The notes below the pieces were generated by a model. It saw only the letters and a program-made list of their open reading frames with translations, had not been told where the DNA came from and ran no database searches. Both the position numbers and the translations under genes were made by a program. A DNA stretch of 37,218 bases from Persephonella sp. (lineage in GTDB: Bacteria > Aquificota > Aquificia > Aquificales > Hydrogenothermaceae): contig JALSNI010000046.1 of the NCBI GenBank assembly GCA_026987075.1, positions 1 to 37,218 on the forward strand, in the 5' to 3' direction. Of this stretch, positions 1,160-6,369 are shown one piece after another; within the stretch, counting starts at the first letter, position 1, and every line of letters begins with the position of its first letter.

Positions 1160-1330
1160 ATGAAGACAAAAGAGTTAGACATCAGATTTGAGACTGTCAA
1201 AATTATCTGTCCCAGATGTAAGACAGAGCAGGAAGAGGTTGTGATTGTCTCAAGGTCTGTCGGCATTATTGACGTCCAGTGTAAAAACTGTAAAAAAAGA
1301 GTTGTAGAACTCAGAATCTTCAATCAGTAG
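1160..1330 (+). CDS. Small zinc-ribbon protein, 56 residues
   Basis: A short gene encoding a 56-residue protein with two CxxC pairs, CPRC at residues 17-20 and CKNC at about 42-45, separated by a beta-rich stretch. This is the layout of a minimal four-cysteine zinc ribbon, so it probably binds one zinc ion; the function is unknown. It has one of the strongest ribosome sites in the window (AAAGGAGGTGA, 1143-1153). ATG 1160 gives 9-base spacing and is preferred, but ATG 1154, two codons earlier, is also possible. The ribosome site is buried in a 12-bp inverted repeat. The gene converges on the porin-like gene and overlaps its 3' end by 7 bases. The opposite-strand frame here is only its shadow. 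Confidence 0.75.
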   Translation: MKTKELDIRFETVKIICPRCKTEQEEVVIVSRSVGIIDVQCKNCKKRVVELRIFNQ

Positions 1331-2385
1331 GACAGGTATATCCTTCCTCCTGCCACCACATCTTCTTTTTTCTCTTTTATATACTGCAGGTCAGCTGTTA
1401 CAGATAGATGTTTGTTGATATTTACTGAATAATAACATTCGCAGGCGGATATGTTGTCTGTTTTATCTCCCTTTATAAAACCGTATGCTACACCTAATCT
1501 GTCCTGAGCGATTATCTTCTTTATCTCAGCCCCGCCTGATATAAAATGTCTGTAATCCCCATCAGACATACCTCCTCTGAAGAATAAACCGTATCTGCTG
1601 TTTACAGTGTAATCCATAGACAGCCCTGTTCCTTTGTATTCTTCTCCTCCAAAAACATAAAAGTAGTAAGGTCTTACATTTAATTTTTCTGTTTCATACT
1701 CTACCTCTAATATCCCAGTATATCCTTCATCAGGACTGTTTTTAATGTAAACTCCTGTTATTCCTGCCCTGTCAGACATCTGGTAATGAAGATACGCACC
1801 AGGATTGTAAGATGGCAGTGATGCCACCGGGTTATTTATAAACATACTGTTTAAAAACTGTATATGCTCGTCGTTTGCATATCTGTTTGTGTCAACAAAT
1901 GCTGTTGAGTCAATAATACCTCCTGCCACTGATAAACTGCCTATATCCTTCTGATAAAAAATTTCTAAAAGATACTCCCTTCCTGTACCATTGATATCCC
2001 TCAGGTAGTCTTCAAGGTCGTCTCCTGTCGTGGCGATAGAGTATCCTAATCTTTCTGTTTTTTTTGTTATACCGTTGCCAACAGTATAAGAAGCATTAAA
2101 AAACAGGTGGTCTGTATCTGAAGGGTTAATGCTGAAGAATGCGTGGAATGTGTTGTAAATAGCTGAATAGTTTCTTATCTGCTGGAAGACAGTAGCGTTA
2201 ACAAAGTCAACCCTGTGAAGGTGTTTCTCGTGCTCCAATATAAATGGTTTTTCTGTATCCTGAGCAAAGGAAGTTCCTGCCATAATCAAAATGATGTATG
2301 AGCATTTACTGCATTTTTTCCCTTTTGTTTTTTTGTAAAGGAAGTACACAGACAATGCCACGAAAGCAGGTATGAGGAAATCCAT
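1324..2385 (-). CDS. Porin-like beta-barrel protein with Cys-rich membrane N-terminus
   Basis: 353 residues. From about residue 45 on, the sequence alternates polar and aromatic residues and ends in SY, as expected of an outer-membrane barrel. Repeated strands such as LEVEYETEKLNVRPYYFYVF suggest a carbohydrate-porin-like (OprB/alginate-type) channel. The N-terminus is odd. Residues 1-30 form a membrane helix followed by KKTKGKKCSKCS, which resembles the small FeoB-associated Cys-rich membrane proteins. Directly after it comes a second short hydrophobic run ending TSFAQ that looks like the end of a signal peptide. ATG 2385 has a good ribosome site (GGAGGG, 6-base spacing). An internal GTG at codon 13 would give a more ordinary secreted protein. 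It follows the 66-residue gene by 11 bases in the same operon. Porin class is an inference. Confidence 0.7.
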   Translation of the reverse strand: MDFLIPAFVALSVYFLYKKTKGKKCSKCSYIILIMAGTSFAQDTEKPFILEHEKHLHRVDFVNATVFQQIRNYSAIYNTFHAFFSINPSDTDHLFFNASYTVGNGITKKTERLGYSIATTGDDLEDYLRDINGTGREYLLEIFYQKDIGSLSVAGGIIDSTAFVDTNRYANDEHIQFLNSMFINNPVASLPSYNPGAYLHYQMSDRAGITGVYIKNSPDEGYTGILEVEYETEKLNVRPYYFYVFGGEEYKGTGLSMDYTVNSRYGLFFRGGMSDGDYRHFISGGAEIKKIIAQDRLGVAYGFIKGDKTDNISACECYYSVNINKHLSVTADLQYIKEKKEDVVAGGRIYLSY

Positions 2386-2396
2386 TTTACTCCCTC

Positions 2397-2597
2397 CTAA
2401 AATACCTGTGGGACTTTCTTTCTGTTTTTACATTCTCTGCATATATGGTCAAGATGCATTTGCTGAATCAGTAGTATCGTTTCGTAGAAAGCCCTGAACA
2501 TCTGCTCCTTTTCTATGTAGCTGTCAGCTTTTGAGATGATATAGCAGTAGTGATGGGACAGAGTTTCTATCTTTTTTTCAAGCTCTGTTATGTTCAT
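2397..2597 (-). CDS. Small Cys/His-containing helical protein, unknown
   Basis: A 66-residue protein that looks mostly helical, with heptad-like hydrophobic spacing. It carries possible metal ligands: HHYC near residue 15 and HLDHICREC near residues 48-56, the latter ending in a CxxC. I do not recognise the family. The start is well supported by AAGGAGGAG six bases before the ATG. It is first in a two-gene operon with the porin-like protein (11-base gap) and lies directly beside the Fur-box-like palindrome at 2618-2636. That context, plus the FeoB-associated look of the next gene's N-terminus, suggests a role in iron handling. This is inference only. Confidence 0.7.
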   Translation of the reverse strand: MNITELEKKIETLSHHYCYIISKADSYIEKEQMFRAFYETILLIQQMHLDHICRECKNRKKVPQVF

Positions 2598-2617
2598 GAT
2601 TTGCTCCTCCTTTTGTG

Positions 2618-2636
2618 ATTGAGAATTAGTCTCAAT
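2618..2636. promoter_or_regulatory. Fur-box-like palindrome between divergent genes
   Basis: ATTGAGAATTAGTCTCAAT has 7-bp perfect arms around a 5-base centre. Its inner 15 bases match the 7-1-7 Fur consensus TGATAATnATTATCA at 11 of 14 informative positions, by hand comparison. It lies in the 87-base gap between the 66-residue gene (-) and apbE (+). It overlaps the -35 box of the predicted apbE promoter and ends about 20 bases from the start of the divergent gene, so bound repressor could shut both directions. Confidence 0.6.
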
Positions 2637-2647
2637 TTTGATAGAAT
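2619..2647 (+). promoter_or_regulatory. Predicted sigma-70-type promoter of apbE
   Basis: TTGAGA (2619-2624) and TAGAAT (2642-2647) are each one base from the -35 and -10 consensus, with an ideal 17-base spacer. The start of transcription would be near 2654, about 30 bases before ATG 2685. The -35 box is inside the Fur-box-like palindrome. Confidence 0.6.
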
Positions 2648-2684
2648 TTTAATAGGTAAAAATCTGCCTGTCAAGGAGAATTTT

Positions 2685-3599
2685 ATGTATCTGATAACTG
2701 TAGCACTTCTTGTTTGTGTAAGCCTTTCTTTTCCTTACGAAAGGACAAAATACATAATGGGAATTCCAGTCACTGTGAAAACAGACCGCAGAGAAGTTCC
2801 AGCGAAAATTTTTTCTGTTTTTAAAAAGGTTGATTTTTACTTTTCTAATTATCGGAAAGACAGTATTCTGTGCAGACTAAACAGACAAAAAATTCTAAAT
2901 ATAGATAACTTTTTCCGCCAGATGTTAGAAAAATCTCTAACTATATATAAGGATACATATGGATACACAGATATAAGCATAGGTAATCTGACTGTCAGGA
3001 ATGGTCACGCTGTAGATAGATGTCCTGCTGAAAAGTCAGACACAACAGGAATACAGAACATTACCATCAAAGGAAGTGTTGTAGTACTGAAAAATGGTAT
3101 ATCACTGGATTTTGGAGCTGTGGGAAAAGGATTTGCTGTTGATAGGGCAGTTGAAGAGATAAGGGGCGAAACAGAGAAAACAGTAATCAATGCGTCAGGA
3201 GAGATAAGATGCATCGGAAAGTGTAGCGTGTTTATAAAAAATCCTTTTGGGAATGGTGCTGTTGCTCACTTTAAGACTGTTAAGCAGGAGACAGGTATAT
3301 CAACCAGTGGAACTTATGAGAGGGGAAACCATCTGTTTAATCCTTTCAGAAAAGAATTTTCAGCCTCTTTTATTTCTATAACCCTGTTTTCTGATATTGA
3401 AAATGTGTACCTTGATGGTTATGCAACAGCTGTATCTGTTATGCCAGAGGAGATGGCTGTTGAGTTTTTAAACAGAAAGAAGATAGGTTTTGTGCTGATA
3501 AAAAAAGAAAGATGCTACATAAAGGGCAGGTACAACGACAGATTTATCACAGAGCTAACATTTCTGATAAATCTTCCTGAGTGTAAAAAGCGCAGATAA
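2685..3599 (+). CDS. apbE: FAD:protein FMN transferase (ApbE family)
   Basis: 304 residues. ApbE enzymes cut FAD and attach FMN covalently to a Thr or Ser of exported proteins, using Mg2+. The family landmarks are in order: DISIGNLT near residue 96, SLDFGAVGKGFAVD at about 140-153, NASGEIRCIG at about 169-178, ISTSGTYER at about 205-213, and the metal site DGYAT at 244-248. The N-terminus is hydrophobic with a signal-like stretch, fitting a periplasmic enzyme. ATG 2685 has AAGGAG six bases upstream. The frame is open further left, but that start would need ATT and lies inside the operator. Its likely substrate is the FMN-binding protein at 4474-5001, which has a TGAT motif. The last 45 bases overlap the convergent membrane-protein gene. 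The predicted promoter carries a Fur-box-like site, suggesting induction under iron limitation. Confidence 0.9.
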   Translation: MYLITVALLVCVSLSFPYERTKYIMGIPVTVKTDRREVPAKIFSVFKKVDFYFSNYRKDSILCRLNRQKILNIDNFFRQMLEKSLTIYKDTYGYTDISIGNLTVRNGHAVDRCPAEKSDTTGIQNITIKGSVVVLKNGISLDFGAVGKGFAVDRAVEEIRGETEKTVINASGEIRCIGKCSVFIKNPFGNGAVAHFKTVKQETGISTSGTYERGNHLFNPFRKEFSASFISITLFSDIENVYLDGYATAVSVMPEEMAVEFLNRKKIGFVLIKKERCYIKGRYNDRFITELTFLINLPECKKRR

Positions 3600-4004
3600 A
3601 ACAAAGGCAAATACAGAAGCACCTATAAAGATTAAAAATGTAAAAATCTTGGTAAATGCCACATTTTCGTTTGTTAAGATAACAAAAGGTATTGCAAAGT
3701 TTAGAAAAATAAAGACAAACGTTATTCCTGCAGCTATGAAGTACAGCTTTTTGACAGGAAAAAAGTAAAAAAAGTGATATATAACAAAAAACATCACAGA
3801 AACAGCTATAAAGTGGGGCAGATGAATCTCTAACAGTCCTGTAAAGCTTTTTTTCTGTATAAACATCTCAGGATTACCGTGGATGTACTGGTTTATCTTC
3901 TGGACTGAAAAGCCGTATCTGTCTAAATACAGGTAAACAGCTGTAAGTAGCTCCCCTAAAAACAGCAAGGCAAACATCAGGACAAGCAAAAATGCCGGCT
4001 TCAT
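3555..4004 (-). CDS. Small four-helix membrane protein, paralogue of the next gene
   Basis: 149 residues with about four membrane helices (roughly 3-27, 62-82, 87-110 and 118-143). An extracytoplasmic loop between helices 1 and 2 holds YIHGNPEMF, and helix 2 begins LEIHLPHF. The neighbouring 158-residue protein repeats this plan (AGNPDIF, then VEKVHIELF), so the two look like diverged copies that may form a heterodimer. The conserved His at the head of helix 2 could hold haem or interact with a flavin; this is speculation. I do not recognise the family. The gene is last of an operon whose members overlap by 4 bases (ATGA), with the FMN-binding protein first, so a shared redox function is likely. 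Its 3' end overlaps apbE by 45 bases. Confidence 0.8.
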   Translation of the reverse strand: MKPAFLLVLMFALLFLGELLTAVYLYLDRYGFSVQKINQYIHGNPEMFIQKKSFTGLLEIHLPHFIAVSVMFFVIYHFFYFFPVKKLYFIAAGITFVFIFLNFAIPFVILTNENVAFTKIFTFLIFIGASVFAFVLSALFTLRKIYQKC

Positions 4005-4477
4005 TTTATCTTCCCTGCCGTGAAAAATATGATGTTCATAAGATTAACAGCAGAAATAACAGTAAGCAGTAAAGATAAGCTGATAGTATAAATGTTAGAA
4101 AACACAGCAGGATAAAGTTTTATCAGGAAGAAAGACAGCACATAAACCCATATGTTTAAAAAGGAAAAGATGGACAGGGTTATTTTGTGGCTGTCTTTGA
4201 TGTTTAATCTCAGGTTTATTGAAAACACAGTGAGAAAGACAACAGACAGCAGAAAAAGCTCAATATGAACCTTTTCCACTATCTGTCCTGTCTCTATTCC
4301 TTCTAAAAAAATATCAGGATTTCCTGCCACTAAGTTTTTGATATCTTCAGGGAAAAACTCTCCAGAAAGCAGTTTGTTTACTACAAAAAGAGTTAAAAAC
4401 CCCTGAACAAAGATAGACAGCATAACAACCAGAAATTTTATGTATGAAGCTTTCCTGTGCTGAACCACGTATCTCAT
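4001..4477 (-). CDS. Small four-helix membrane protein
   Basis: 158 residues, predicted four membrane helices (roughly 12-34, 68-88, 95-118 and 126-152). After helix 1 comes a loop with AGNPDIFLEG, then VEKVHIELF at the start of helix 2. This is the same arrangement as in the protein encoded just downstream, so they look like tandem duplicates. It overlaps the FMN-binding gene upstream and its paralogue downstream by 4 bases each, which implies coupled translation. The likely job is to anchor the flavinylated protein or pass electrons to it from the membrane. No haem, flavin or quinone motif is certain, and no family was recognised. Confidence 0.8.
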   Translation of the reverse strand: MRYVVQHRKASYIKFLVVMLSIFVQGFLTLFVVNKLLSGEFFPEDIKNLVAGNPDIFLEGIETGQIVEKVHIELFLLSVVFLTVFSINLRLNIKDSHKITLSIFSFLNIWVYVLSFFLIKLYPAVFSNIYTISLSLLLTVISAVNLMNIIFFTAGKIK

Positions 4478-5001
4478 TTTAGTTTTTCCCTCAGATAATA
4501 CTTACAGATACCTATTCCTTGACGAACAGAGTCTGTGATAACCCGGGAAGATAATGTGGCACCTGTAACATTGGGGATGTTCCTTTTTATGTAAGGGAGT
4601 TTTTCAGGAGAGAGATTTCTAAACAGTTTTAACCACTTTTCAGGGGGAATGTATTCTGGTGGTTCGTAAAATGCTATAATCTCCACGTCCAATACCTGAC
4701 AGTCTCTGTTCATTGTGATTAGAACAGTCTCTTTTTTTGTTCTTACCCTGTGGGAATGCAGAAGTGAGTAAGCAACAGTTTTACCTTCTTTGTCTTTTAT
4801 AAGATAAACAGTAAACAGAGAGCTTTTTATTTTTGTTTTAAACTGTTTTTCTATCAGCACTTTTTCCTTTTTTCCAAGGAGAAAACTTTTTTTTGTGTAA
4901 CTGTGCTGTGGAAACATATCTTTTATAGCTTTTTCTGGTTTTATCAGTAATCCACCATAGGAAAAACCTATCCATATCAAAAACGTCAGCATAAATCTCA
5001 T
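4474..5001 (-). CDS. Exported FMN-binding (flavinylated) protein
   Basis: 175 residues with an N-terminal hydrophobic export signal or anchor (residues 2-20) and a C-terminal FMN-binding domain like those of NqrC and RnfG. The covalent attachment motif is NVTGATLSS at residues 144-152, which makes Thr149 the probable FMN-phosphothreonine. Before it, YEPPEYIPPEKWLKLF resembles the family's substrate-binding segment. The frame opens at TTG 5007, but ATG 5001 is preferred because AGGAGG then sits six bases away. It leads an operon with two small membrane proteins, and apbE, the enzyme that would load the FMN, converges on the same operon. This arrangement matches known flavinylated extracytoplasmic electron-transfer systems. 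The electron donor and acceptor are unknown. Confidence 0.85.
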   Translation of the reverse strand: MRFMLTFLIWIGFSYGGLLIKPEKAIKDMFPQHSYTKKSFLLGKKEKVLIEKQFKTKIKSSLFTVYLIKDKEGKTVAYSLLHSHRVRTKKETVLITMNRDCQVLDVEIIAFYEPPEYIPPEKWLKLFRNLSPEKLPYIKRNIPNVTGATLSSRVITDSVRQGIGICKYYLREKLK

Positions 5002-5042
5002 CTTCAACCTCCTATATATCAGGTTAAAAACTTTTTCAGTTT

Positions 5043-5076
5043 TTTTTATGACAAATTTTCTGAAAAGTCATAAAAA
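5043..5076. promoter_or_regulatory. Inverted repeat between FMN-binding operon and porin
   Basis: TTTTTATGAC (5043-5052) and GTCATAAAAA (5067-5076) are perfect 10-bp arms. A nested inner pair, TTTTC and GAAAA, gives further symmetry. It sits in the 132-base gap between two divergent genes, which favours an operator over a terminator. A TTGTCA on the minus strand inside the left arm could be the -35 box of the FMN-binding operon. Confidence 0.45.
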
Positions 5077-5133
5077 CAAAGTTTTTAAAACTATAAATTA
5101 ATTGAAACAAAATCTCAATATCAGGAGGGAATA

Positions 5134-6369
5134 ATGAAGAGAATTTTATCTTTTGCTCTTTTAACAGGTTTATTTTCTTATTCTTATAGTGCAACTTTAC
5201 AGGAGATTGAGAGCAGACTGAAGCAGTTAGAGGAGCAGAATCAACAGCTGATAGAAGAGCTTGCAAATCTTAAACAGCAGGTTGAAATTCCTGAACTCAG
5301 ACAGCAGCAGTTTTCAGGTATGGGCTATGCAGCCTCAAAGGTTTACTTCACCCCTGCTGGGCTGTCTATTGGAGGATATGGAGAGATTATTTACCAGAGA
5401 TTTGAAAAATCCAACATAAAAGATAAAACAGACATTTACAGATTTATCCCATACATAGGTTACAAGTTTAACGACTGGATTATTCTTAATGCAGAAATAG
5501 AGTTTGAGCACGGAGCTGATACATCAAGAGGTGGAAAGGTAAAGATAGAGTTTGCCTATATGGATTTCCTTTTTAATGACTACTTTAATGTTAGACTTGG
5601 AAGCTATCTGATACCAGTGGGACTGACAAACCTTCTCCACGAACCTGTATTTTTTAACTCTGTTAACAGGCCAGAAGTGGAAACCTACATAATACCAACA
5701 ACATGGAATGAAAACGGAGTCCTGATATTCAGTAATATGGAAAAATGGAACTATCAGGTTGGTGTAGTAAACGGCTTTTACTATCAGGGATTTTCTGACA
5801 GCAAGTGGGTAAAAGGAGGAAGACAGGCTGGTGGGAAAGCACTGGCAGAGGACTTTGCATTTGTTGGAAGGATTGATTATACAGGAGTTGACGGACTGCT
5901 GTTTGGGGTTTCAGGATATACAGGAAATTCAGGGCAGGGAGACGGATTTGACGGGACGGTTACCCTTATTGACGGACACCTTAAGTATTCTTATAAAAAT
6001 TTAGATATTTCAGCCCTCTACGTTAAAGGATATCTGTCTGATGCAGACAAGATATCTACAGCAGTAGGAAAAACTGTTGGTAAGGAGGTCTACGGTTATT
6101 ATCTGAATGTTGCTTACGACATATTCCCTTTCTTTTCCGATAAAGACTACTCACTACCTGTCTTTGTTAGATATGAACGGTATAACACCCAGGAAAAAGT
6201 GCCGGCAGGCTTTACAAAAAACAGTCAGTACGACAAAACCATATGGACTGTTGGTCTGAACTTTAAGCCCCATCCTAACGTTATCCTGAAAGCCGATTAC
6301 CAGATTAGAGACAACAGACAGTTTAACGAGTCTGACATATTTGAACTTGGTCTTGGTTTCATCTTCTAA
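5134..6369 (+). CDS. Outer-membrane porin with N-terminal coiled coil (porin O/P-like)
   Basis: 411 residues. A signal peptide (MKRILSFALLTGLFSYSYSA) is followed by a coiled coil at about residues 20-50 (LQEIESRLKQLEEQNQQLIEEL), which in this porin type trimerises or reaches toward the cell wall. From about residue 75 on, the sequence is a chain of amphipathic strands ending in FELGLGFIF with a terminal Phe, the classic outer-membrane barrel ending. The style matches phosphate-selective porin O/P-like proteins, but the solute cannot be read from sequence. CAGGAGGG lies 4-5 bases before ATG 5134. It diverges from the FMN-binding operon across an inverted repeat and ends at a clear terminator (6402-6422), so it is probably a single-gene unit. 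It may supply the redox island with its substrate. Confidence 0.85.
   Translation: MKRILSFALLTGLFSYSYSATLQEIESRLKQLEEQNQQLIEELANLKQQVEIPELRQQQFSGMGYAASKVYFTPAGLSIGGYGEIIYQRFEKSNIKDKTDIYRFIPYIGYKFNDWIILNAEIEFEHGADTSRGGKVKIEFAYMDFLFNDYFNVRLGSYLIPVGLTNLLHEPVFFNSVNRPEVETYIIPTTWNENGVLIFSNMEKWNYQVGVVNGFYYQGFSDSKWVKGGRQAGGKALAEDFAFVGRIDYTGVDGLLFGVSGYTGNSGQGDGFDGTVTLIDGHLKYSYKNLDISALYVKGYLSDADKISTAVGKTVGKEVYGYYLNVAYDIFPFFSDKDYSLPVFVRYERYNTQEKVPAGFTKNSQYDKTIWTVGLNFKPHPNVILKADYQIRDNRQFNESDIFELGLGFIF

Follow-up and report, generated by a model that had tools for sequence, protein, structure and literature searches.

A locus of Persephonella sp. encodes what appears to be a flavinylated electron-transfer module, which, judged from its sequence, works like the known systems that couple a membrane carrier to a flavinylated protein, and whose membrane part lies outside all models tested. 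Its function is read, with somewhat better than even confidence, as that of a ferric reductase in the cell envelope that is repressed by iron and serves assimilation: reduction in the periplasm would feed FeoB. What is new here is the membrane component; flavinylation-associated, Fur-linked reductases are already known.

The stretch of DNA analysed (hereafter the window, 37,218 nucleotides) is contig C46 of a genome of 1.66 Mb in 78 contigs. The module parts found in it are a secreted FMN_bind protein, two membrane proteins (TM1 and TM2) and ApbE, with one porin on each side (Table 1). On the minus strand the genes for the FMN_bind protein, TM1 and TM2 follow one another in that order, and ATGA overlaps can be read in the sequence at 4474-4477 (FMN/TM1) and 4001-4004 (TM1/TM2). 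Both the overlapping operon and the flanking porins described in the initial annotation are thus present, the porins being recognized by Pfam. The apbE gene is convergent with this operon and divergent from the 66-aa gene and the OprB-like porin gene, while the Porin_O_P-like barrel gene is divergent from the FMN operon. The 66-aa/OprB transcription unit is followed, about 1.3 kb downstream, by a gene for a flavodoxin/WrbA-like protein (533-1084).

Table 1. Positions of the module genes, flanking porins and operator sites in the window.
Feature	Position	Strand	Characteristics
OprB-like outer-membrane porin	1324..2385	-	PF04966, E 4.3e-8; same strand as and after the 66-aa gene
66-aa cytoplasmic-looking protein	2397..2597	-	ORF; C-R-E-C near the C-terminus; no family
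Fur-box-like operator ATTGAGAATTAGTCTCAAT	2618..2636	.	Between the divergent apbE and 66-aa genes
ApbE, FAD:protein FMN transferase	2685..3599	+	PF02424, E 2.9e-36; ATG at 2685, then signal peptide
TM2, four-helix membrane protein	3555..4004	-	Second half of the fused family; H64, H77 and K119 invariant
TM1, four-helix membrane protein	4001..4477	-	First half of the fused family; H71 invariant
FMN_bind protein, secreted	4474..5001	-	PF04205, E 2.1e-5; candidate flavinylation acceptor Thr149 (codon 4555-4557)
Second, degenerate operator copy ATTGAAACAAAATCTCAAT	5101..5119	.	Divergent porin/FMN-operon promoter; one mismatch
Porin_O_P-like outer-membrane barrel with N-terminal coiled coil	5134..6369	+	PF07396, E 9e-5

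The FMN_bind protein possesses a signal peptide and the motif N-V-T-G-A-T, of which the last Thr is Thr149 when numbered from the ATG at 5001. The flavinylation motif earlier claimed at this residue is well preserved: Thr149, N144, G147 and A148 are invariant in 22 aligned homologues, which follow the pattern N-x-T-G-A-T, and the TGAT segment agrees with the [S/T]GA[S/T] signature of secreted ApbE substrates. When a profile of the homologues was compared with the PDB, only RnfG subunits were retrieved, the best being 9eri (E 5e-10), aligned through TGAT. By analogy with RnfG and NqrC, Thr149 would be the FMN acceptor. A search of genome contigs with the FMN_bind protein yielded one relative only, in a Persephonella sp. 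MAG. The window apbE encodes the only ApbE (PF02424) of the genome. Translation more likely starts at ATG 2685, which has an AAGGAG ahead of it and a signal peptide after it; a TTG at 2619 was rejected because it falls within the palindrome. The PF02424 domain, the signal peptide and the co-occurrence described below are those of an extracytosolic ApbE encoded with its substrate.

Across 136 Aquificota genomes, the FMN protein is found in 66, the membrane family in 70 and ApbE in 71. All 66 genomes with the FMN protein contain the membrane family and 63 of these 66 contain ApbE (Fisher p = 1.6e-34 and 8e-26, respectively, shared ancestry being ignored), so that the co-occurrence search proposed in the initial annotation gave a positive answer. 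In the relative G065 (L032, L011), stops or frameshifts interrupt the FMN gene and the barrel, and TM1 is truncated, which may reflect decay of the module or a faulty assembly.

Four helices are predicted for TM1 and four for TM2, and in both proteins positive charges are concentrated toward the N-terminal side. In a profile comparison the two match each other with a probability of 98 and an E-value of 1.6e-13, as expected for diverged paralogues. In most other Aquificota, a single fused protein of ~310 aa is encoded directly after the FMN gene, its first half matching TM1 (E 1.7e-19) and its second half TM2 (E 3.8e-28). Since they correspond to successive halves of this protein, TM1 and TM2 are best understood as its two halves encoded separately, the whole being an eight-helix protein with an internal duplication, and their fusion in most other Aquificota indicates that they work as one eight-helix unit. 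The two paralogous membrane proteins of the initial annotation are therefore indeed paralogues, but not two separate partners. The suggestion that they are undescribed gains ground from family searches. TM1 and TM2 of the window have no Pfam or NCBIfam family, 29 of their relatives have no Pfam family, and no PDB sequence match was found. Neither TM1 nor TM2 matches the PepSY-like, MsrQ-like, DsbD, NqrB/RnfD or DUF4405 Pfam models up to E 1, and these models are also absent from the Pfam matches of 16 fused and 13 TM2 relatives. The single NCBIfam row was CseB at E 0.18, well under its cut-off. One TM2 relative matches cytochrome b561 (PF01292) at E 6e-4, under the curated cut-off; apart from this, no sequence match of TM1/TM2 to any cytochrome was found in Pfam, NCBIfam or the PDB. 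PDB searches with TM profiles gave no meaningful match, and a plasmid search with the fused TM1-TM2-type protein gave none. AlphaFold models of TM1 and TM2 built from two-sequence alignments are of low confidence (pLDDT 61 and 57).

The invariant histidines of TM1 (H71) and TM2 (H64 and H77) are also kept in the fused form, as H71, H226 and H239 of L017. If the charge distribution is taken to indicate an N-in topology, helix 2 of each half would carry its histidine, TM1 H71 or TM2 H64, at the periplasmic end, with TM2 H77 thirteen residues further in than H64, toward the cytoplasm. These residues suggest that TM1/TM2 may be a b-type cytochrome. Three invariant histidines are too few for two complete bis-His sites; one heme might be held between the halves on the periplasmic side, H77 contributing to a second site or to proton/quinone chemistry.

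The Porin_O_P-like barrel adjoins the module, in a conserved order of genes, in 18 of the 20 loci examined and is likely to be part of the system. Its identification as an LbtU-type siderophore porin was considered; no NCBIfam match supports it for the window barrel, for L061 or for the Methylocystis relatives. In seven loci the barrel stands beside a protein of ~540-670 aa with two CxxCH motifs and, in most cases, a lipobox-like start (e.g. L056:7782-9413 and L054:5627-7645), which has no curated family match. The TM1/TM2 family is present in each of the 24 genomes that encode this dihaem c protein, which the window genome lacks. Neither the barrel nor the dihaem lipoprotein had a meaningful counterpart in the PDB. 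The OprB-like porin has an extra N-terminal TM helix and the segment KGKKCSKC, with its CSKC, ahead of the signal peptide. This Cys-rich extension, which also occurs in L054, L072 and L049 and is lacking in L055 (G080), has no Pfam match; we take it to resemble the Cys-rich membrane peptides associated with FeoB. Relatives of this porin are found at the module in G081, G082, G087, G080 and G001, with feoB immediately downstream of it in G001 (FeoB being identified by sequence). Homologues of the 66-aa protein occupy the same position in Persephonella relatives, with a weak homologue in G077; its CxxC is not kept in the L054 and L072 homologues.

The promoter between apbE and the 66-aa gene, for which a Fur-box-like palindrome had been reported, does contain the sequence ATTGAGA-N5-TCTCAAT, and the same palindrome separates these genes in G081, G082, G087 and L049. 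Its core, TTGAGA-N5-TCTCAA, has one exact match in the whole genome, ahead of apbE; with up to two mismatches, two matches are observed in the window against 0.44 expected. The second operator copy (Table 1) had been overlooked. An inverted repeat, TTTTTATGAC-N14-GTCATAAAAA, is located beside it at 5041-5075 in the porin/FMN promoter. An operator matrix built from Persephonella-clade sites only was then run on 17 loci of other genera. At a threshold of at least 13 bits it gave 20 hits, 15 of them upstream of module genes or feoB, in windows that make up 4.8% of positions; the hit rate outside these windows predicts 0.25. The 85,331 positions upstream of other genes contained a single hit, and matrices with permuted columns produced a mean of 0.23 promoter hits. 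No operator motif was found at 13 bits in L058, L060, L062, L063, L068 and L070.

The same type of site precedes a bona fide iron-uptake operon. In the feoAB loci (4.5-6 kb) of G000, G081, G082 and G080, the top site lies directly upstream of feoA; it is weak (11.9 bits) and of identical sequence in all four. In G099, a 20.8-bit site is found just upstream of feoA. Because the motif recurs before module genes and feoAB, the palindrome is best read as a putative Fur box, and the iron regulation initially proposed is strengthened. The genome encodes three Fur-family proteins. Proximity of feoB to the module, within ~8 kb, is limited to four genomes (G099, G103, G001 and G014), and FeoB is near-universal in Aquificota, including genomes that lack the module. 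A one-mismatch operator-like site at G000 C78:32533 (L099 about 1034) precedes a small DUF2249-like gene and an NnrS-like membrane gene; it adjoins a Crp/Fnr-type regulator gene, an arrangement also seen in G081.

From the parts, their co-occurrence and the operator they have in common with feoAB, all read in the sequences, we infer the following scheme. When iron is scarce, Fur would leave the two divergent promoters, and ferric iron or a ferric complex would enter the periplasm through the conserved barrel. The secreted FMN_bind protein would receive FMN on its Thr149 through the action of ApbE. Acting as a unit, TM1-TM2 would pass electrons from the membrane, probably from quinol via heme b on the invariant histidines, to this FMN, and from there they would reach Fe(III), in some relatives via the dihaem c lipoprotein. 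The resulting Fe(II) would be imported by FeoB. Ferric reduction is probably, if not by a wide measure of certainty, the most economical function of the module. A wider proposal, plausible and yet falling somewhat short of an even chance, is that TM1/TM2 and their fused form constitute a new family of eight-helix heme-b quinol:flavoprotein oxidoreductases which, with its dedicated barrel, forms a Fur-controlled ferric reductase in about half of Aquificota.

Other functions deserve consideration. The operator logic would be identical if the flavin relay spared iron instead of handling it, replacing iron-containing periplasmic carriers under iron limitation; FMN is free of iron, and flavodoxin in place of ferredoxin offers a parallel. 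Such a substitution is nevertheless unlikely: in 24 genomes, each of which also encodes the membrane partner, the module includes a dihaem c lipoprotein; the membrane part may itself bind heme, to judge from its invariant histidines; and an exchange of carriers needs no conserved outer-membrane barrel. Another possibility is respiratory or extracellular electron transfer, in which the FMN protein and the barrel, with the dihaem lipoprotein in some species, would conserve energy by delivering electrons to iron oxide or another acceptor outside the cell. Several genera have barrel, dihaem lipoprotein and FMN protein in a common operon, which agrees with this, but repression by an iron-type operator common with feoAB fits assimilation instead, and the lipoprotein, which has only two hemes, accompanies the membrane partner in 24 of its 70 genomes and is missing from that of the window; we regard this function as quite improbable.

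A further possibility is that the module maintains the redox state of a different envelope process, involving copper, protein repair or a substrate carried by a porin, and that a regulator other than Fur reads the palindrome. The palindrome does differ from the E. coli Fur consensus (PMC4506495), and the Methylocystis relative lies beside multicopper oxidases and a ferritin-like protein. The presence of the operator ahead of feoAB in five genomes speaks against this explanation, to which we give rather little credence. Assimilatory ferric reduction remains the preferred reading. If it is true, a route of ferric iron acquisition would be identified for a phylum of hydrothermal chemolithoautotrophs.

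Surveys of flavinylation sort the systems by a few membrane carriers, and the TM1/TM2 family, conserved in 70 of 136 Aquificota genomes, falls outside that list. The carriers described so far include PepSY-like, MsrQ-like, DsbD, NapH-like and NQR/RNF-like (PMC8238504), to which DUF4405 has been added (PMC11334425). The main text of the 2021 survey (PMC8238504) does not contain "Aquific-", and in the literature outside subscription papers and supplements Aquifex is linked with flavinylation in passing mentions only. The split and fused forms reveal an internal duplication and provide a handle on how the halves might hold a cofactor.

A close parallel is offered by the PepSY-like systems (DUF2271, PF03929/PF16357; PMC8238504), in which a secreted ApbE substrate, a membrane electron carrier and apbE are likewise grouped in one cluster. 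These clusters are reported to be Fur-repressed and linked to iron transporters, and a role in iron assimilation has been proposed for them, as for the module here. However, the module substrate is FMN_bind and not DUF2271, TM1/TM2 match neither PepSY model, and porins take the place of the neighbouring TonB receptors. What the module shares with the DUF4405 and MsrQ-like cytochromes (PMC11334425, PMC8238504) is a set of membrane helices bearing conserved histidines, encoded beside apbE, and a probable transfer from the membrane to an extracytosolic flavin. DUF4405 is reported to have six helices and four central histidines, whereas the module has two four-helix halves, three invariant histidines and no Pfam match. 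RnfG and NqrC resemble the FMN protein in their FMN_bind fold and TGAT, on the Thr of which they carry covalent FMN, but the window protein is the sole PF04205 match in its genome, has no adjacent Rnf/Nqr genes and is associated with unrelated partners.

Outside the phylum, the same set of parts is found in Alphaproteobacteria, on plasmids of Methylocystis heyeri, Sphingomonas and Novosphingobium, where a barrel, a homologous FMN_bind protein and apbE accompany a single four-helix protein that is rich in histidine and has conserved His residues. The latter was tested as a homologue of TM1/TM2 and showed no detectable similarity. The Methylocystis barrel is homologous to that of the window (28% over 442 positions, E 6e-25), while the Sphingomonas barrel is DUF6662. 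The comparison suggests that these are systems of one kind, in which barrel, flavoprotein and ApbE travel jointly and the membrane carrier can be exchanged.
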